Below, in pieces: positions 7,639-22,870 of a stretch of 64,000 nt of DNA. The notes under the pieces are model-generated. The model saw only the letters and a list, made by a program, of their open reading frames with translations, was not told the origin of the DNA and made no database searches. Each line of letters opens with the position of its first letter. Position 1 is the first letter of the stretch. This DNA comes from Aquimarina megaterium XH134 (GTDB taxonomy: Bacteria > Bacteroidota > Bacteroidia > Flavobacteriales > Flavobacteriaceae). The position numbers and the translations under genes were made by a program. The DNA lies in the NCBI RefSeq assembly GCF_000520975.1, contig NZ_JACB01000035.1, positions 1 through 64,000 of the forward strand, written 5' to 3'.

Positions 7639-8469
7639 GTGAAAACCTTAAAAAGTATATTCAGATTCTATATTAACGGTAGTATTCATGTCGCTTTAGC
7701 TATATGTGCTTTAGTACAAGTTACCTTTATGAAATATGGAATATCAGATCAATATACCTTCCTCCTTTTTTCTTTTTTAGGTGCTATTACGGCGTATAAT
7801 TTTGTAAAATATTCTAAAGTCTCTAAACTTTACCACAAAAGATTGACCAAATCGATGAAAGGGATTCGTGTTTTAACCATTTTGAGTTGCGTGTCTTTTA
7901 TCTACCTTTCGTTTAGAGTGTCGATTAATACGTGGCTCTATATGGCACCGTTTATAGCACTTACTGTTTTGTATGTTGTTCCTGTTTTTCCTAACAAAAA
8001 GAACTTAAGGAGCCTTGCAGGGGTAAAAATTTTTATTATCGGAATGGTTTGGGCTGGTATGACTGTATTGGTTCCATTAGTACATGTTAAAGGAAATCTG
8101 AATTTAAATTTTTTAATAGAAATGATTCAACGGTTTTTATTTATTGTGGTTATGATGTTACCTTTCGAGGTAAGAGATTTGCAGTATGATGATGTAGCTT
8201 TAGAAACGATTCCGCAAAAAATTGGAGTTACAAGAACTAAGCTTTTTGGTAGTATTTTATTAGTTATCTTTTTATTATTAACTGCTGTAAAAGATGAGTT
8301 GTTATCATCGATAGAAATTTTAAGTACTATATTGATAACTACAATAAGTTTATTCTTTTTATGGGGAACAGATAAGAAGCAATCAGAATATTATTGTTCT
8401 TTTTGGGTAGAGAGTATTCCTATAATGTGGTTAATAATTCTCGTTATTCTGGAGTCTTTATTTAGTTAA
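7639..8469 (+). CDS. UbiA-like polytopic membrane protein, probably degenerate prenyltransferase fold
   Basis: The protein has 276 residues from a GTG start and about eight hydrophobic segments. UbiA-family prenyltransferases carry two Asp-rich motifs. Here the first would sit at AYNFVKYSKVS and lacks the aspartates, while the second is recognisable as FEVRDLQYDDVALETIPQKIG (about residues 181-201), which resembles the DxRDxxxD...TIP pattern. I therefore see a UbiA-like relative that may have changed or lost catalysis. It converges on the small gene at 8462-8719 with an 8-bp overlap. An alternative is an uncharacterised integral membrane family with only chance similarity. Confidence 0.6.
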   Translation: MKTLKSIFRFYINGSIHVALAICALVQVTFMKYGISDQYTFLLFSFLGAITAYNFVKYSKVSKLYHKRLTKSMKGIRVLTILSCVSFIYLSFRVSINTWLYMAPFIALTVLYVVPVFPNKKNLRSLAGVKIFIIGMVWAGMTVLVPLVHVKGNLNLNFLIEMIQRFLFIVVMMLPFEVRDLQYDDVALETIPQKIGVTRTKLFGSILLVIFLLLTAVKDELLSSIEILSTILITTISLFFLWGTDKKQSEYYCSFWVESIPIMWLIILVILESLFS

Positions 8470-8719
8470 TTCTTTTTGTTATTTCTTTTTTCATTGCTTC
8501 TTTATCTGAAGCGCTGATTGATTGTGTTTTAGAATTGTTAATGGTTTTTGTAAGTTTTGTGTTTCTTTTGGAATACGCTCGCGTTACTTTACAATAGATC
8601 AGGCGAATATTAAGTTTTATTATTTCGAGAAAAGATGCTTCACCATATTGATTTTTATCGCAAATATGTTTTGCTTCTTCACAGGATACAAATACTTTAT
8701 TCTTATTCGTAGTTTTCAT
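8462..8719 (-). CDS. Degenerate paralogue of the putative zinc anti-sigma protein
   Basis: The protein has 85 residues and is clearly a tandem paralogue of the next gene upstream (8775-9023). They share VSC-x2-EA, CDKNQY, EASF, KLNI-x-LIYC, KLTK and SDKEAM. In this copy the H-x3-C-x2-C core is broken: the expected His is Arg39 and the last Cys is Thr46, while Cys13 and Cys43 remain. It probably no longer binds zinc in the canonical way. It is in the same direction as the ECF sigma factor and its first partner, 55 bp downstream of the latter. It may be a modulator, a competitor, or a copy that is decaying. No membrane segment is present. Confidence 0.65.
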   Translation of the reverse strand: MKTTNKNKVFVSCEEAKHICDKNQYGEASFLEIIKLNIRLIYCKVTRAYSKRNTKLTKTINNSKTQSISASDKEAMKKEITKRIN

Positions 8720-8774: not shown

Positions 8775-9023
8775 TTACATTCTTTGCTTTAATCGTTCTT
8801 TCATTGCTTCTTTATCAGAACGGTTAATACTAATCACTTTTGGGCTCTTTACCAATTTGGTTAACTTCATGTTTTTTGCAGTGTACTTCCTGCATGCTCT
8901 ACAATATATCAAATGTATGTTCAGCTTTACTTTTTCCCAAAAAGAAGCTTCTTTATACTGATTTTTGTCACAGAAGTGATTTGCTTCTGAACAACTTACT
9001 AATATTCCCTTTTTATTACTCAT
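8775..9023 (-). CDS. Small zinc-binding anti-sigma-like protein (ZAS type)
   Basis: The protein has 82 residues. Candidate zinc ligands are Cys11, His37, Cys41 and Cys44, giving C-x25-H-x3-C-x2-C, the zinc-binding anti-sigma (ZAS) signature. As far as I recall, Streptomyces RsrA has the same residue numbers. His16 and Cys18 are also conserved with the paralogue. The start lies 6 bp after the stop of the ECF sigma gene, so translation is probably coupled. The inferred role is cytosolic binding and inhibition of the neighbouring sigma factor, with release on thiol oxidation or metal loss. The protein lacks the membrane or cupin domain that many anti-sigma factors have, so it would be a minimal, soluble form. 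Confidence 0.65.
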   Translation of the reverse strand: MSNKKGILVSCSEANHFCDKNQYKEASFWEKVKLNIHLIYCRACRKYTAKNMKLTKLVKSPKVISINRSDKEAMKERLKQRM

Positions 9024-13639: not shown

Positions 13640-16021
13640 ATGAGAAAACTAAATCTATTTTTTTTAGCGGTATCGCTAAGCGTATTAACGTCATGTATTT
13701 ATGCGCAGGAACGATCAAAAATGTTTCATGCGACGATGGATACTCAGGACGCATTAAAACTAAAAAAGAATCATCCCAATGATGTGAAAATTATTAAATC
13801 GGTTAACAAATATAGTGCCGTAATGCTGAATGAACATTCGGCAGAAGAACTACATCATACGGGATTAAGGCATGGACCAGGATATTTTTATGAAACTTCA
13901 GAAAAAACTGCTATAGAAGCAATAGTGAAAGCTAATTCAATTCAAAAATCAAAAAATCAATCCTCAACAAAAGCAGCAGTTGCTTTTGAGATTACTCAGG
14001 ATCAATTGGTAAATCAAAGTTTAGGGTTGGTAAATAACACTAATATTGATAGACAAATTAAAGAACTTGAGAATTATGGTACCCGCTACCACACAAAAAG
14101 TAGTGCAAAAAGAGCTTCTACAGACTTAAAAGCAAAATGGGAGGGACTTGCCGGTAATCGTAGCGATGTATCGGTTAGACTTGTCAACCATTCTGGTTCC
14201 CCAATGCCGTCTGTTATTATGACGATTACCGGTACAGAAAAACCAAATGAGTATGTGGTTTTGGGAGGACATTTGGATTCGACATCACCACGTGATCAAA
14301 ATAATGCTCCGGGAGCAGATGATAATGCTTCTGGTATTGCAACAATTACAGAAGTTGCCAGAGTATTATTTAGCATGAACTACAAACCAAAAAGAACAGT
14401 AGAATTTATGGCATTTGCTGCAGAAGAAATCGGTTTGGTAGGGTCTAAAGAAATAGCAAGAGATTATAAAAATCGTAATGTAAATATAGTGAGCTATATG
14501 CAATTGGATATGACTAATTATAAAGGTTCTACACAGGATGTCTTTATTACAACAGATTCATATAATAGTACTTCTTTAAATAATTTCTTGAAAAAATTAA
14601 TGGATCATTATAATGCTTCTGGAACACATAAAATTACGTATAGTAATTCTGCTTGTAACTATGGATGTTCTGATCACCATAGTTTTGCACAACAAGGATA
14701 TGAAACAGCATTTCCTATAGAAGCAAAATTTAGTGAGAGCAACCCTAATATTCATACGTCAAGGGATACTTCATCTAGATTTCCTACCTCAAATGCAACA
14801 CATGCTGCCAAATTTGCCAAATTAGCTTTAGAATACCTTATCGAAATTTCTAATGCAGGCTCTGGAGGCAATCCTCCAACAGGATATTGTGCATCTAATG
14901 GGCAAAAAACATCAGACGAGTATATAGGTAAAGTTGCTTTAGGAACAATTAATAAAACCTCTACTGCAGGAAGCGGAGGGTATAGCGATTTTACAGCAGA
15001 AACTACTAATCTATCTAAAGGAACATCACATACCATTACGGTGACACCAACGTGGTCTGGAAGTACTTATGATGAAGGATATGCAGTATGGATTGATTAT
15101 AATCAGGATAAAGATTTTGCTGATTCTGGCGAGTTGGTTTGGAGCAAAGCGGCTTCAAAAACAACACCAGTAAGTGGTAGCTTTACTGTACCAGTAGGAG
15201 CAAAAAATGGAAGCACAAGAATGAGAGTTTCTATGAAATATAATGCAATTCCTACTGCTTGTGAGTCTTTTGAATATGGAGAAGTAGAAGATTATACTGT
15301 TGTTATCGGAGGATCTGGTGGGGGAGATACTCAGGCGCCTTCTGCTCCTTCAGGATTATCCTCATCAAATGTAGCGCAAACTACTTTAACACTATCATGG
15401 ACATCTTCTACAGATAATGTTGGCGTGACCGGATATGATGTGTATAAAGGAAATACAGTTGAAACTTCTGTTTCTGGAACCACGACTAACATTACAGGCT
15501 TAACTGCTAATACTGCATATACATTTAGTGTAAAAGCAAAAGATGCTGCAGGTAATGTATCTGCTGCAAGTAATGTGATAAATGTAACCACCACAGGAGG
15601 AAGCAGTGACCCTTGTGCTGGTGTTCCGCCATATAGTTCTTCTGAAACCTATCAGCCTGGTGATCGAGTAACGTACCAGGGGAGTCTATATGAAAAAACC
15701 AATACAGGTTGGACTTATATTGGATCTTGTGGAGCACTGTTCGCAAGAAGCTCTACTGTTGATGTATTAGCAGATGATAGTATGTCTTTTGATTTTTATC
15801 CTAATCCAGTAACAGAAGATCATATAGAGATTACTGTTAATAATGAGCTGTGGAAATCAGGAAGTGTATTGGTTGTAGATGTAAAAGGAAATATTGTACG
15901 AGAGATTAGGCTTAAAAATAAAGTTACTCAAGTCAATACTTCTAAATTTTCTACTGGAGTATACTTTTTGACACTTTTTAATGGATCAAAAAGTGCTACA
16001 AAACAGATGATTATAAAATAA
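13640..16021 (+). CDS. Secreted multidomain M28 aminopeptidase with T9SS sorting domain
   Basis: The protein has 793 residues. A signal peptide (1-22) is followed by a propeptide-like region (about 25-130). The M28 zinc-peptidase domain spans about 135-405 with ligands His211, Asp227, Glu263, Asp290 and His372 and the catalytic Glu262, as in Vibrio leucyl aminopeptidase. Next come a GEVED domain (about 418-556, with GEVEDYTV), a fibronectin type III domain (about 565-652), a short chitin-binding-like module (about 660-698, with YQPGDRVTYQGSLYE) and a type A T9SS C-terminal domain (about 715-793, YPNPV...KQMIIK). The protein is therefore exported by Sec, then through T9SS to the cell surface or medium, where it would trim peptides. 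It has its own promoter and stem-loop and no operon partner. Confidence 0.95.
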   Translation: MRKLNLFFLAVSLSVLTSCIYAQERSKMFHATMDTQDALKLKKNHPNDVKIIKSVNKYSAVMLNEHSAEELHHTGLRHGPGYFYETSEKTAIEAIVKANSIQKSKNQSSTKAAVAFEITQDQLVNQSLGLVNNTNIDRQIKELENYGTRYHTKSSAKRASTDLKAKWEGLAGNRSDVSVRLVNHSGSPMPSVIMTITGTEKPNEYVVLGGHLDSTSPRDQNNAPGADDNASGIATITEVARVLFSMNYKPKRTVEFMAFAAEEIGLVGSKEIARDYKNRNVNIVSYMQLDMTNYKGSTQDVFITTDSYNSTSLNNFLKKLMDHYNASGTHKITYSNSACNYGCSDHHSFAQQGYETAFPIEAKFSESNPNIHTSRDTSSRFPTSNATHAAKFAKLALEYLIEISNAGSGGNPPTGYCASNGQKTSDEYIGKVALGTINKTSTAGSGGYSDFTAETTNLSKGTSHTITVTPTWSGSTYDEGYAVWIDYNQDKDFADSGELVWSKAASKTTPVSGSFTVPVGAKNGSTRMRVSMKYNAIPTACESFEYGEVEDYTVVIGGSGGGDTQAPSAPSGLSSSNVAQTTLTLSWTSSTDNVGVTGYDVYKGNTVETSVSGTTTNITGLTANTAYTFSVKAKDAAGNVSAASNVINVTTTGGSSDPCAGVPPYSSSETYQPGDRVTYQGSLYEKTNTGWTYIGSCGALFARSSTVDVLADDSMSFDFYPNPVTEDHIEITVNNELWKSGSVLVVDVKGNIVREIRLKNKVTQVNTSKFSTGVYFLTLFNGSKSATKQMIIK

Positions 16022-16033
16022 TTATAACATATC

Positions 16034-16083
16034 AACTCATCTTAACTTTTTTTCTGTTAGTGAAAATAAAGTTAAGATGAGTT
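16034..16083 (+). terminator. Long stem-loop after the M28 peptidase
   Basis: A 16-bp perfect inverted repeat (16034-16049 with 16068-16083) around an 18-nt loop starts 12 bp after the stop codon. The T-run after it is weak, so it may act mainly as a 3' stabiliser. Confidence 0.6.
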
Positions 16084-16353
16084 TATTGATAACTACCCAG
16101 TATGATAGTTTTGTGAACTGGATTACTATAGAATCAAACTATTATGGCATTTAGAGCCTTGTTAAGGGGAACCTTTTTCTTATGAAACTTTGTTTTACTT
16201 ATTTTGAGATAGAACAAAAAAGGAAACTACAAATGCACAAAAAATAATAGAAATTACTCAAAACAATATTCTAATCCCAATACAATTGTTTGAGCTTTAA
16301 TATGGTATACAAACTCGTCATAATTCAGGGAAAAGTATACTTCTCTTGAAAAC

Positions 16354-16392
16354 AAAAAAGCAGATACATTTCACTAATGTATCTGCTTTTTT
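16354..16392. terminator. Bidirectional terminator
   Basis: The 16-bp arms AAAAAAGCAGATACAT (16354-16369) and their complement (16377-16392) enclose a 7-nt loop, with A/T tracts on both sides. On the minus strand it would end the peptide transcript from 16693, 127 bp past the stop codon. Confidence 0.75.
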
Positions 16393-16519
16393 ACTAATTT
16401 TTTTATTGTTAAATATCTCTATTGCTTACCCTAAGAAATCAGAAGCATAGATACCTTACTTATGAACTCTTAAGAAAACAAATGATCGATAGCATTAGCA
16501 AAGAACGATCAGAGAGGTA

Positions 16520-16693
16520 TTAACAAAATTGTTTAAAGGCACATATTTCAGTTTTATACAAAGAAAAATAACAGCATGCCATATTATCAGGGCAATCAGA
16601 ATCAGAATTACATTCTGTATACCTACCACCGTTAATACTTTTTTGCTGAGTTTTACTTAAGACCTTCCCTAAAGTTAAAATTGTTTTTTTCAT
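16520..16693 (-). CDS. Double-glycine-leader peptide with six cysteines in a knottin-like pattern
   Basis: This gene is short (57 residues). The leader is MKKTILTLGKVLSKTQQKS followed by INGG (20-23), the form seen in Bacteroidota bacteriocin-like precursors that are cut after Gly-Gly by a C39-peptidase ABC transporter. The predicted mature part is 34 residues with Cys28, 34, 40, 41, 51 and 57, giving C-x5-C-x5-CC-x9-C-x5-C. That order (C, C, CC, C, C) is the inhibitor-cystine-knot frame, and the DSDCP...CC stretch also recalls WAP-type domains. A terminator follows at 16354-16392. No exporter or modifying enzyme lies in the window, so export would depend on a distant transporter. The leader makes me fairly sure it is a real gene. 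The fold and activity are inferred. Confidence 0.7.
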   Translation of the reverse strand: MKKTILTLGKVLSKTQQKSINGGRYTECNSDSDCPDNMACCYFSLYKTEICAFKQFC

Positions 16694-16908
16694 TTTTACA
16701 ATAATTTAATTAATATGAATTTGGTATAACACTATTTAATTCTAAAAATTTGTAGTTATTCTTGAGTTTTAATTTTAATGTGCTTTAGTTCAAAAAAAAG
16801 AATAATATTCTCATTCCTATACCCTGAAAACAGGGTTTTAGGAATTCTATATGTAAAATGGATTTAAGAGACTTTATTATTACTCAATCACGTAAGCATA
16901 AAGACTTA

Positions 16909-17059
16909 TATAGTATTGTATTTATATTTATAAAAAGGAAATATTGCACAAGAGATTAAGCTTAAAAGTGAAGCTGTCTAAATCAAGATTTCAAAATTTT
17001 CTGGCGAAGTATACTTTTGGTAGATCAAAAAAAATATACAAAGAAGATGATTATAAAAT
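16909..17059 (+). pseudogene. Decayed 3' end of a second T9SS-cargo gene
   Basis: This stretch aligns by eye with 15866-16020, the last part of the M28 gene. Shared runs include AAAGGAAATATTG, GAGATTA-GCTTAAAA, TCTAAATTTTCT-like and GATGATTATAAAAT. The remnant encodes KGNIAQEIKLKSEAV and then has an in-frame stop, another stop after GEVYFW, and an internal deletion before the final MIIK-like codons. It is therefore the ruin of a T9SS sorting domain. It lies just before an intact plus-strand terminator. Confidence 0.7.
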
Positions 17060-17082
17060 GATAGCGAAGGATATATTAGATT

Positions 17083-17133
17083 TACCAAATGGGATCTGTT
17101 AAAGTTTTTAGCTTCAACAGATCCCATTTGGTA
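17083..17133 (+). terminator. Strong terminator left behind the gene remnant
   Basis: An 18-bp perfect stem (17083-17100 with 17116-17133), a 15-nt loop, then TTTTTTATTTAA on the plus strand. It ends 5 bp before the stop of the minus-strand M3 peptidase gene and may serve both directions, although the T-run favours plus. Confidence 0.75.
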
Positions 17134-17137
17134 TTTT

Positions 17138-19159
17138 TTATTTAATTAATCCTGCTCGTTTTAATAACGCTTCAGGCTTAGGTTCTTGTCCTCTAAAACG
17201 TTTATAAAGAGTCATAGGGTTTTCTGTACCTCCTTTAGATAACACATGATCTTTAAATTTGGTAGCGATTTCACGATTAAAAATTCCATTTTCTTTAAAA
17301 TACTCAAAAGCATCAGCATCTAATACTTCTGCCCATTTATAAGAATAATACCCCGCAGAATACCCTCCTTGAAAAATATGCGAAAAAGCTGTACTCATAC
17401 AGTTTTCCTCTACATTTGGATACAAAGAAGTTGCCGAAAAAGTAGTTTTTTCATGTGCTTTTACGTCTTTTATATCGCTAGGATCTTGTGCATGCCATGA
17501 CATGTCGAGTAGTCCAAAACTCAATTGACGCAGTGTAGACATACCTTCCATAAAGGTTGCAGATTCTTTAATCTTTTCGACCAATTCCATTGGGATTATT
17601 TCACCTGTTTCATAGTGTTTTGCAAAAAGCTCTAAAGCTTCTTTTTCATAACACCAATTTTCCATAACTTGACTAGGTAATTCTACAAAATCCCAGTATA
17701 CACTAGTTCCCGACAAACCGGGATAGGTAGTATTAGCCAGCATACCATGTAATGCATGACCAAATTCATGAAATAGTGTTGTTACTTCATTAAACGTTAA
17801 TAAAGATGGTTTACTAGGTGTAGGTTTGGTGAAGTTGCAAACAATAGAAACATGAGGTCTTATGTTTTTATCATTCTTCCTCATTTGTGATTTATAGGAT
17901 GTCATCCATGCTCCATTACGTTTTCCTGGTCTGGGATGAAAATCGGCATAAAACAATGAAACAAAATTACCTTCAGTATCAGTAACATGATAAGTTTTTA
18001 CTTCTTCATGGTATTTGTCTACATCATTAACTTCTTTAAACTGAAGACCAAATAATTTATGGGCTACAGTAAAAACCCCTTCAATTACATTTTCTAACTT
18101 GAAATAAGGTTTCAGTTTTTCATCATCAAGGTCAAAAAGCTTTTGTTTTAGTTTTTCTGAATAGTAAGCTCCGTCCCATTTTTGTAAGTGATCAATCTCA
18201 TCTAATTCCTTTGCATAAGATGTTAATTGTTTAAATTCTCTTTCTGCCGCAGGTTTGGCCTTCTCTAAAATTTCATTTAGAAAAGAAAATACAGTATCGG
18301 GAGTTTCTGCCATTCGTTCTTCCAGTATATAATTGGCATGAGAGGAATATCCTAAAAGAAGAGCACGTTGATGTCTAAGGTTTGCAATTTTTAAAACAAT
18401 TTCCTGGTTGTCAAGATCGTCGTTGTGAAATCCTTTGGATCCAAAAGCAAGAGCTAGTTTTTTACGCAACTCTCGATTATCGGCATAAGTGATAAAAGGA
18501 ATATAGCTTGGGTAATCCAGAGTGATTAACCACCCTTTTTTACCTTTTGCTTCTGCCATAGATTTTGCTGCTTCCTTAGCTCCTTCTGGTAAACCAGCTA
18601 GATCAGATTCGTTGGTAAGCAACATCTCAAATTTATTAGTCTCGGCCAAGACATTTTCGCCAAACTTTAGGCTTAGCGTAGAAAGCTCTTTATCAACCTC
18701 TCTTAGTTTTTCTTTTTTTTCATCAGGAAGATTAGCTCCATTTCTCGAGAACGATTTGTATCTTTTTTCAAGAAGTCTGGATTGTTCTGGATTAAGATCT
18801 AATGATTCTTTTTGTGTATACACTACTTCGATTCTCTTAAATAAGTCGAGATTAAGTGCTATGTCATTACTAAATTCTGAAAGTAGAGGAGAGGCTTCTT
18901 GTGCTATTTTTTGAATCTCCTCATTAGTCTCAGCACTATTTAAATTAAAAAAGACACTTGTAACTCTATCTAACAACTCTCCGCAATATTCTAATGCCTC
19001 TATAGTATTAGAAAATGAAGGTGGTTCGGAATTAGAGACTATGGTATCAACTTGTTTTTTGGCAATAGAAATGCCGTTTTTTATAGCCGGTAAAAAATGA
19101 TCTGACTTTATTTCTGAAAATGGTGCAGCATCAAATGGTTTTAATAGTGGATTGTTCAT
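17138..19159 (-). CDS. M3-family zinc oligopeptidase (Dcp/PrlC type)
   Basis: The protein has 673 residues, the normal length for oligopeptidase A or peptidyl-dipeptidase Dcp. The zinc motif is His464-Glu465-Phe-Gly-His468 in TLFHEFGHALHGML, and the third ligand should be a Glu in the following FVELPSQVMENW. The N-terminus NPLLKPFDAAPFSEIKSDHF and the C-terminal YSYKWAEVLDADAFEYF are typical of the family. No signal peptide is seen, so it probably degrades short peptides in the cytosol. I cannot separate Dcp from PrlC by sight, so I give no symbol. The gene is monocistronic. Confidence 0.93.
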   Translation of the reverse strand: MNNPLLKPFDAAPFSEIKSDHFLPAIKNGISIAKKQVDTIVSNSEPPSFSNTIEALEYCGELLDRVTSVFFNLNSAETNEEIQKIAQEASPLLSEFSNDIALNLDLFKRIEVVYTQKESLDLNPEQSRLLEKRYKSFSRNGANLPDEKKEKLREVDKELSTLSLKFGENVLAETNKFEMLLTNESDLAGLPEGAKEAAKSMAEAKGKKGWLITLDYPSYIPFITYADNRELRKKLALAFGSKGFHNDDLDNQEIVLKIANLRHQRALLLGYSSHANYILEERMAETPDTVFSFLNEILEKAKPAAEREFKQLTSYAKELDEIDHLQKWDGAYYSEKLKQKLFDLDDEKLKPYFKLENVIEGVFTVAHKLFGLQFKEVNDVDKYHEEVKTYHVTDTEGNFVSLFYADFHPRPGKRNGAWMTSYKSQMRKNDKNIRPHVSIVCNFTKPTPSKPSLLTFNEVTTLFHEFGHALHGMLANTTYPGLSGTSVYWDFVELPSQVMENWCYEKEALELFAKHYETGEIIPMELVEKIKESATFMEGMSTLRQLSFGLLDMSWHAQDPSDIKDVKAHEKTTFSATSLYPNVEENCMSTAFSHIFQGGYSAGYYSYKWAEVLDADAFEYFKENGIFNREIATKFKDHVLSKGGTENPMTLYKRFRGQEPKPEALLKRAGLIK

Positions 19160-21763: not shown

Positions 21764-22870
21764 ATGGTAAAACTGCACGATTTACAGTTTGTTCCTTTCA
21801 TTAGTGAAGAAGAAATAAAGACTGCAATAGATAAGGTATCTGCTGGATTAAATCAAGATTTAGCAGATAAAAACCCTTTATTTATAGGAGTATTAAATGG
21901 TGCGTTTATGTTTGCTTCAGAGGTTTTGAAACGGTTTGATTATGATTGCGAAATTAGCTTTGTGAAATTAGCATCGTACGAAGGAACCGAAACTACGCAC
22001 GAGGTTAAAGAGTTAGTAGGTCTAGGTGAAGAGGTTTCAGGAAGAACAGTGGTGATCTTAGAAGATATTGTAGATACGGGTAATACGATCGAAGTGCTAA
22101 CAAAAATGTTAGTAGAAAAAGGGTGCTTAACATACAAAATAGCTACTCTATTTTATAAACCCGAAGCATATACTAAAAAAATTAATATAAATTATATTGG
22201 GATAGAAATCCCAAATCGATTTATTGTAGGATACGGACTTGATTATAATGGATTAGGGCGTAATCTTACAGAAGTTTATCAATTAAAACCAAACAACATG
22301 ACAAATTTGGTGTTATTCGGACCTCCAGGAGCAGGAAAAGGAACACAAGCAGAAGTTTTAAAACAAAAATATAATCTGATACATATCTCTACAGGAGATG
22401 TGTTTAGATACAACATAAAAAATGAAACAGAGTTAGGTACTTTGGCAAAATCATATATCGATAAAGGTCAATTGGTACCAGATGAGGTTACAATTAATAT
22501 GCTGAATGCCGAAGTTGATAAAAACCCAGAAGCTAAAGGCTTTATTTTTGATGGGTTTCCAAGGACCGAGGCTCAGGCAGATTCGCTAGCTAAATTACTA
22601 GAGTCAAAAGGAGCAATGGTTAGTGCAATGGTAGCTCTAGAGGTAGATGATGAGGTATTAGTACAACGATTACTCGAAAGAGGAAAAACATCAGGACGAC
22701 CCGATGATGCAGATGAAAAAGTGATACGTAATCGTATTAAAGTATATTATGACGAAACAGCTATCTTAAAGAATTACTACCAAAAACAAGATAAATATTT
22801 TGGAGTAGATGGAGTAGGAGGTATCGATGAAATTACAGAGAGGTTAAGTAGTGTAATAGACAAACTTTAG
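21764..22870 (+). CDS. adk: Fused hypoxanthine phosphoribosyltransferase and adenylate kinase
   Basis: The protein has 368 residues and two enzymes in one frame. Residues 1-175 are Hpt: the PRPP loop is VVILEDIVDTGNT and the C-terminal part has RFIVGYGLDYNG. From Met179 comes a complete adenylate kinase of 190 residues with the P-loop GPPGAGKGT, ISTGDVFR, FDGFPRT and GRPDDADE in a short LID without zinc cysteines. The Hpt half turns hypoxanthine or guanine plus PRPP into IMP or GMP; the Adk half interconverts AMP, ADP and ATP. An ATG at 22298 could also start Adk alone. I believe this fusion recurs in Flavobacteriaceae. obg follows 86 bp downstream. Confidence 0.95.
   Translation: MVKLHDLQFVPFISEEEIKTAIDKVSAGLNQDLADKNPLFIGVLNGAFMFASEVLKRFDYDCEISFVKLASYEGTETTHEVKELVGLGEEVSGRTVVILEDIVDTGNTIEVLTKMLVEKGCLTYKIATLFYKPEAYTKKININYIGIEIPNRFIVGYGLDYNGLGRNLTEVYQLKPNNMTNLVLFGPPGAGKGTQAEVLKQKYNLIHISTGDVFRYNIKNETELGTLAKSYIDKGQLVPDEVTINMLNAEVDKNPEAKGFIFDGFPRTEAQADSLAKLLESKGAMVSAMVALEVDDEVLVQRLLERGKTSGRPDDADEKVIRNRIKVYYDETAILKNYYQKQDKYFGVDGVGGIDEITERLSSVIDKL

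Follow-up and report, generated by a model that had tools for sequence, protein, structure and literature searches.

A six-cysteine double-glycine-leader precursor of Aquimarina megaterium, its large family and a putative linked disulfide oxidase

The locus described here raises the question of what a solitary, very short gene encoding a cysteine-rich peptide is doing between two peptidase genes of Aquimarina megaterium XH134. The window, which is the whole stretch of DNA analysed, comprises positions 1 to 64,000 of contig NZ_JACB01000035.1, and the genome examined amounts to 6.2 Mb in 161 contigs. Translation of the minus-strand frame at 16520-16693 gave 57 codons and a stop (MKKTILTLGKVLSKTQQKSINGG / RYTECNSDSDCPDNMACCYFSLYKTEICAFKQFC, 57 amino acids), with six core cysteines spaced C-x5-C-x5-CC-x9-C-x5-C. 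This bears out the gene, the leader ending in INGG and the 34-residue, six-cysteine core of a preliminary description made from the letters of the DNA. The leader has the Gly-Gly end and the conserved hydrophobic positions of double-glycine-leader peptides exported by C39-type transporters. The parts of the gene are the following.

16520-16693, minus strand: precursor gene, 57 codons and stop (translation, orthologues, leader profile)
16625-16693, minus strand: double-glycine leader, 23 residues, INGG end (leader profile match at E 1.6e-10, an in-sample value, as this leader is part of the profile)
16523-16624, minus strand: predicted mature core, 34 residues with six cysteines (spacing, model pLDDT 87, WAP Pfam match at precursor residues 26-44)

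The preliminary description called the peptide unlisted, which understated the case, as it is one of ~60 precursors in its genome. Counting the query itself, a search with the whole peptide found 29 matches in its own genome at E<=1 (30 at E<=10), and 33 of 56 genomes gave matches. A leader-only profile was then built from 26 leaders (21 from the same genome and 5 from relatives, its own leader included), all taken from precursors chosen for cysteine-rich cores. At E<=0.1, this profile marked 60 places in the A. megaterium genome, 61 in Aquimarina sp. AU58, 53 in A. atlantica 22II-S11-z7 and 0 to 52 in other members of the genus. Outside the genus, 22 of 23 genomes gave no match and one gave 4.

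Since the profile contains no core residues, it allows a fair test of cysteine content for members outside its construction. All 60 open reading frames (ORFs) encode at least two core cysteines and 59 an even number, distributed as 2 (n=1), 4 (23), 5 (1), 6 (33) and 8 (2). By comparison, only 6 of 172 control small ORFs had at least four cysteines beyond residue 24. Control ORFs with at least two cysteines (36 even, 15 odd) served as the parity null instead of 50:50, and against their odd rate of 15/51 the excess of 59 even over 1 odd has p=2e-8. The 60 cores are 25-51 amino acids long (median 36) with 14% cysteine; 58 are distinct, and 55 different cysteine spacings occur among them. Pairs of leaders have a median identity of 44% over their final 18 residues, and pairs of cores one of 31% in gap-tolerant alignment. 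Scattered Pfam matches at E<=0.01 among 42 hand-picked precursors included WAP three times, scorpion calcine twice, and a single match each to squash inhibitor, conotoxin, spider toxin and Dumpy. A different leader type (MKKKSLNTKKLTLKK...) is carried by three near-identical precursors at locus L064 (4352-5085), beside a C39 ABC exporter and HlyD.

Three full Peptidase_C39 ABC proteins are encoded in the genome. The fourth C39 match is a VKOR fusion. Two groups of precursors in the genome flank a fusion protein of ~530 amino acids with an N-terminal C39-like domain, a VKOR domain (PF07884) and a Thioredoxin_4 domain. Nine of the 60 precursors lie <=3.5 kb from the genome's three VKOR genes, where ~0.2 would be expected (p 7e-13 under random placement). 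Of the 56 relatives, 31 have VKOR genes. A draw of 392 genomes from the phylum gave 98 with such genes, where many frames outside the class are shorter and possibly other proteins. Across the 56 genomes, leader matches and VKOR genes were both present in 30 and both missing in 24, with one genome having the leader only and one VKOR only (Fisher 1.4e-13, kinship ignored). Within the genus, the corresponding counts are 29 with both, 3 with neither, 1 with the leader only and 0 with VKOR only (p 7e-4). Of the discordant genomes, G030 has a single weak leader match in an 89% complete assembly, and G036 has VKOR and precursors of another leader type.

The linkage was also examined locus by locus, at 53 VKOR loci (51 from Aquimarina and 2 from the same order). 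With the leader search at E<=1 and at least three cysteines, precursors were found at 30 of the 53 loci (25 at E<=0.001) and at none of 20 control loci placed at a distance of 40 kb. Under a looser filter these numbers became 38 of 53 and 0 of 20, and precursors were seen at 19 of 20 loci from other genera (L238 doubtful by eye); 15 of the 53 loci lacked a precursor even then. The test is mildly circular, as the leader profile used for it derives from precursors of the A. megaterium genome, five of them at VKOR loci L067 and L068, and the 20 other-genus loci were chosen by hand for frame lengths typical of the fusion. Among these 20 loci, an exporter related to the C39 ABC exporter of Aquimarina was seen near 12, with a match extending into the C39 domain in 8 cases, and HlyD near 10, both counts covering VKOR loci only. 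The even-cysteine rule extends to 119 non-redundant cores from 238 loci (107 even, 10 odd and 2 without cysteine; 117 with at least two), and to the non-redundant cores at 73 VKOR loci (67 even, 4 odd, 2 without cysteine). At 14 loci, including L068:842-1012 and L125:7743-7922, a precursor next to the VKOR gene has a near-constant core end (NPALSCCYHNGTTWVQGPPCF and close variants), unlike the other, hypervariable precursors.

The composition of the fusion points to a redox enzyme with a degenerate peptidase-like part. All 75 fusion frames retain six redox cysteines, one pair in the VKOR loop and the others in the CxxC motifs of VKOR and thioredoxin, and the remaining cysteine columns of the C39-like part all stay below 30%. 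Profile comparison paired this part with exporter C39 domains at a probability of 98.3%, aligned only from exporter position 25. Exporter cysteines 15 and 19, present in 16 and 15 of 20 exporters, have no counterpart in the fusion, and the exporters' invariant His and Asp are aligned with other residues in the fusion shown. On these grounds, the C39-like domain is probably a dead, binding-only domain. HlyB carries a C39-like domain that is dead and binding-only. Docking of the leader in the cytoplasm was our initial assumption for this domain, and it was undercut by hydropathy: most fusions have five or six membrane-spanning peaks, and the two peaks ahead of the VKOR loop in 61 of 75 would place the C39-like domain on the same side as thioredoxin, the periplasm. 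A PDB sequence search with the fusion found no match at E<=0.01. At L065 (4667-6841 and 8644-10827, contig C6), a LanB-type dehydratase gene lies near a C39 ABC exporter with the third VKOR fusion ~4 kb on, possibly a lanthipeptide locus.

Turning to the gene itself, orthologues with the same neighbours are present in A. atlantica 22II-S11-z7 and Aquimarina sp. AU58. The gene aligns without gaps at 96.0% and 97.7% DNA identity, respectively, compared to 84-89% for the 400-base upstream flank and 77-78% for the downstream flank, both gapped. Each orthologue differs by three amino acids, with every cysteine and the Gly-Gly unchanged; synonymous/non-synonymous codon changes are 3/3 and 1/3, too few for a rate test. 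Judged by orthologue conservation, the leader family and the cysteine counts of the cores, the peptide gene is more than a chance frame.

The preliminary description had also placed the gene between two peptidase genes, correctly: these encode M28 and M3 peptidases and are convergent. The surroundings are as follows.

13640-16021, plus strand: M28 peptidase with GEVED, Fn3 and a type IX secretion system (T9SS) tail; neighbour outside the peptide unit (domain search)
15883-16022, plus strand: intact M28 3' end, T9SS sorting tail (sequence comparison)
16023-16932, no strand: inserted segment bearing the peptide gene, between two copies of the M28 tail
16031-16086, plus strand: inverted repeat behind the M28 gene, probable terminator
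16354-16392, no strand, scored on the plus strand: perfect 17-bp inverted repeat behind the peptide gene, terminator-like
16933-17062, plus strand: M28 3' end in a decayed copy; its distance to the M3 gene, 75-79 bases, is probably the ancestral one
17072-17144, minus strand: inverted repeat behind the M3 gene, probable terminator
17138-19159, minus strand: M3 peptidase; neighbour outside the peptide unit (domain search)

In three peptide-free relatives (L289, L297 and L299), the match to the M28 tail comes to within 86, 75 and 69 bases of the M3 end. In the three peptide-bearing species the intact tail stops 1,119-1,131 bases from M3, and the decayed copy 75-79 bases from it. By these distances and the two tail copies, the peptide gene arrived on an insertion of ~1 kb that duplicated the M28 tail and left the decayed original beside M3. 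The duplication (15883-16022 / 16933-17062) may in itself illustrate a route by which peptide cassettes spread. Among 19 Aquimarina loci examined around M3, M28 was recognised next to it in 12, and the peptide is present at 3 and missing at 16. A protease-inhibitor role had been suggested from the adjacent peptidases; this argument fails because the gene sits in the insertion and is missing at most of these loci, which makes the neighbours incidental, and we rejected it. The inverted repeats behind the M28, peptide and M3 genes suggest that the peptide gene is probably its own transcription unit. A sigma-70 promoter scan was uninformative (8 matches vs 8.4 in shuffles), and an Rfam scan of the window at gathering scores gave no match. 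Elsewhere in the window, two adjacent small ORFs (8462-8719 and 8775-9023) appear by eye to be paralogues, sharing a motif around CDKNQY beside a sigma-factor-like ORF, and a single frame at 21764-22870 seems, by eye, to combine a hypoxanthine phosphoribosyltransferase-like with an adenylate-kinase-like part.

The predicted fold of the core was compared with known structures. The AlphaFold2 core model, based on an alignment with the two orthologues, has pLDDT 87.1 and pTM 0.51 and shows one helix turn of three residues and a hairpin of two strands; the core of A. acroporae was poorly modelled (pLDDT 58) and left out. The PDB sequence search with the precursor found no meaningful match (best E 0.17), and Foldseek with the core model found none at E<=0.001 (best E 0.83). 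The best Foldseek rows were Dickkopf, the spider toxins Magi4 and Hc3a, and squash inhibitors including EETI-II, at query TM 0.55-0.65. VIA-align against 80 chains ranked highest 8g4y (Z 4.3), by its title a designed peptide of knottin size, followed by PcTx1 (3.5), EETI-II (3.4), omwaprin (2.5) and SLPI (2.4), all below significance; its top rows are mostly knottins, and MCoTI-II is also among the matches. Of the knottin-like frame proposed earlier, the C, C, CC, C, C order stands, and the resemblance in fold is suggestive, short of significance. Knottin disulfides are paired 1-4, 2-5 and 3-6. The order of cysteines, the predicted hairpin core and the best structural likenesses are common to the peptide and inhibitor cystine knot (ICK) peptides such as spider toxins, conotoxins and squash inhibitors. 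Unlike these, the peptide is bacterial, has a double-glycine leader in place of a signal peptide, and has a knot connectivity that is presumed.

How would such a peptide be made, and what would it do? The 23-residue leader would be recognised in trans by a C39-domain ABC exporter and cut after Gly-Gly, and the 34-mer translocated out of the cell. Its six thiols would be paired by a VKOR-thioredoxin fusion enzyme common to many precursors, and the folded three-disulfide miniprotein would act extracellularly on a protein target, most likely of competing bacteria, as bacteroidetocins do. We infer cleavage, export, oxidation, the pairing 1-4/2-5/3-6, the exporter and oxidase serving this peptide, and the antibacterial role. 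The C39-dependent export of the preliminary description fits the double-glycine leader and the three full C39 ABC exporters in the genome, and the disulfides it proposed agree with the even-cysteine rule and the linked VKOR oxidase. We consider export and disulfide bonding of the peptide highly probable.

The joint claim of a secreted, disulfide-stapled, bacteriocin-like peptide, antibacterial role included, we regard as evenly poised, since confidence in the whole is capped by its weakest element, the antibacterial role. Several observations speak against it. The core has a net charge of -2, while typical antimicrobials are cationic, and the gene is solitary, with exporter, oxidase and an evident immunity gene all absent alongside. 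The gene's occurrence at 3 of 19 loci and the sub-significant fold comparisons have the same bearing, as does metagenome bin EG16N_Bin3 (L116), which holds a decayed version beside M28, with a start lacking ATG and an internal stop, possibly from sequencing error.

The closest known counterparts are bacteroidetocins. According to Coyne et al. 2019 (PMC6671954), their loci encode both a thiol oxidoreductase and an ABC transporter of double-glycine type, and the oxidoreductase gene is required for full activity. Toxin activity falls when the gene for the peptide, the oxidoreductase or the five-transmembrane (5-TM) protein is deleted, and the authors propose that the disulfides are made by the oxidoreductase. 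The bacteroidetocin target is BamA (PMC8546649). Both systems belong to Bacteroidota and combine a double-glycine leader, an even number of cysteines, a thiol oxidoreductase and an ABC transporter with double-glycine peptidase, the last two here at the level of the genome. Bacteroidetocins have four cysteines, a 42-residue core, a 15-residue leader and a four-gene locus, whereas the peptide has six cysteines in 34 residues, a solitary gene, ~60 precursors per genome and a C39-like/VKOR/thioredoxin fusion as its putative oxidase. No locus of bacteroidetocin type, with the 5-TM protein, oxidoreductase and transporter beside the peptide, surrounds the gene, whose neighbours are the M28 and M3 peptidases, and because of its six instead of four cysteines the peptide was not filed as a bacteroidetocin. 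Two bacteriocin-like Bacteroidota families, NF047798 (leader_Chryseo) and NF047792 (CCPGW putative bacteriocin), match 4 and 7 of the 42 hand-picked sister precursors at E<=0.01. For the peptide itself, leader_Chryseo was rejected (13.1 bits vs a cut-off of 23.5), and the NCBIfam search gave no match to CCPGW. By analogy, bacteriocin-like activity is our best guess.

Other activities fit parts of the same evidence. A secreted enzyme inhibitor, whose knottin core would block a protease belonging to a competitor, a grazer or a host in the manner of squash inhibitors or WAP domains, could explain the CxxDSDCPxxxxCC stretch shared with the WAP four-disulfide core (PF00095), a match at precursor residues 26-44 above the Pfam cut-off (25.2 vs 20.8 bits), as well as the squash trypsin inhibitors EETI-II and MCoTI-II among the fold matches and the single sister precursor of 42 that matches Pfam Squash. 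The WAP match spans 19 of 41 model positions, however, and the core has six and not the eight cysteines of that set, so WAP membership was rejected; fold likeness is no proof of function, spider toxins rank equally high, and the adjacent peptidases are incidental. We consider an inhibitor unlikely. With ICK toxins of spiders and other venoms also turning up in the fold comparison, the peptide might, in turn, be a venom-like effector that acts on ion channels or receptors of eukaryotes (algae, sponges, crustaceans, grazers). One sister precursor, L046, resembles maurocalcin (E 0.012), the Pfam matches among the 42 precursors include conotoxin, calcine and spider toxin, and conserved leaders with hypervariable cores are in keeping with it. 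Yet these small-peptide matches are weak and driven by cysteines, and no eukaryote-aimed delivery route turned up, though none was sought. The same gene arrangement is found in several other Bacteroidota families, making a target special to marine hosts less likely, and we rate a venom-like role as rather improbable.

Two further explanations fare worse. A ComC/EntF-like peptide signal, sensed by the producer or its neighbours, is hinted at by a weak match to the NCBIfam EntF induction factor (E 0.022, residues 10-47), but at 15.1 vs 35 bits this falls below the cut-off, membership was rejected, and 58 distinct cores among 60 in one genome go far beyond any apparent signalling need; signalling is very unlikely. 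Thioether or ester crosslinks, placed by a lanthipeptide enzyme on cysteines or an ATP-grasp enzyme on other residues, would make the peptide a precursor of another class of ribosomally synthesized and post-translationally modified peptide (RiPP). The dehydratase near another C39 exporter at L065 and the graspetide precursors of Aquimarina agarilytica described in PMC8939145 favour this. The even cysteine numbers and the VKOR-thioredoxin linkage fit disulfides instead, and no such enzyme was recognised among ORFs at 8-26 kb (by inspection, no domain search). The sole dehydratase seen lies on another contig than the peptide gene, a genome-wide search for all such enzymes not having been made. 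A crosslinked RiPP is the faintest of our candidates and highly improbable.

Prochlorosin-type sets of marine cyanobacteria combine one conserved leader with dozens of unlike cores that are processed in trans to lanthipeptides. The Aquimarina set resembles them in having one leader and many cores, presumably also processed in trans, and differs in that the linked enzyme is a putative disulfide oxidase and not of lanthipeptide type. We tentatively propose, with somewhat less than even confidence in the proposal as a whole, that Bacteroidota possess a pathway dedicated to the oxidative folding of disulfide-rich double-glycine precursors, with the dead C39-type/VKOR/thioredoxin fusion as its hallmark. 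The dead domain would recognise the leader or the exporter, one enzyme would fold dozens of unlike cores, and Aquimarina would have arrived at a conotoxin-like arsenal, with up to ~60 miniproteins of knottin type in one genome and eukaryote-like scaffolds reached by convergence. Among the matches listed from titles and abstract beginnings in open PMC, no paper on a VKOR fusion with double-glycine precursors or on bacterial knottin repertoires was found.

Knottins are prized as drug and crop-protection scaffolds and are mainly known from animals, plants and fungi. If the proposal is true, Aquimarina would offer a new and genetically tractable source of knottins, one with up to ~60 disulfide-rich, leader-tagged precursors in a genome and a folding enzyme linked to them. 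The theme of the bacteroidetocins would be widened from single peptides to a large repertoire, and the handling of many folds by a single leader and a single oxidase could be studied.
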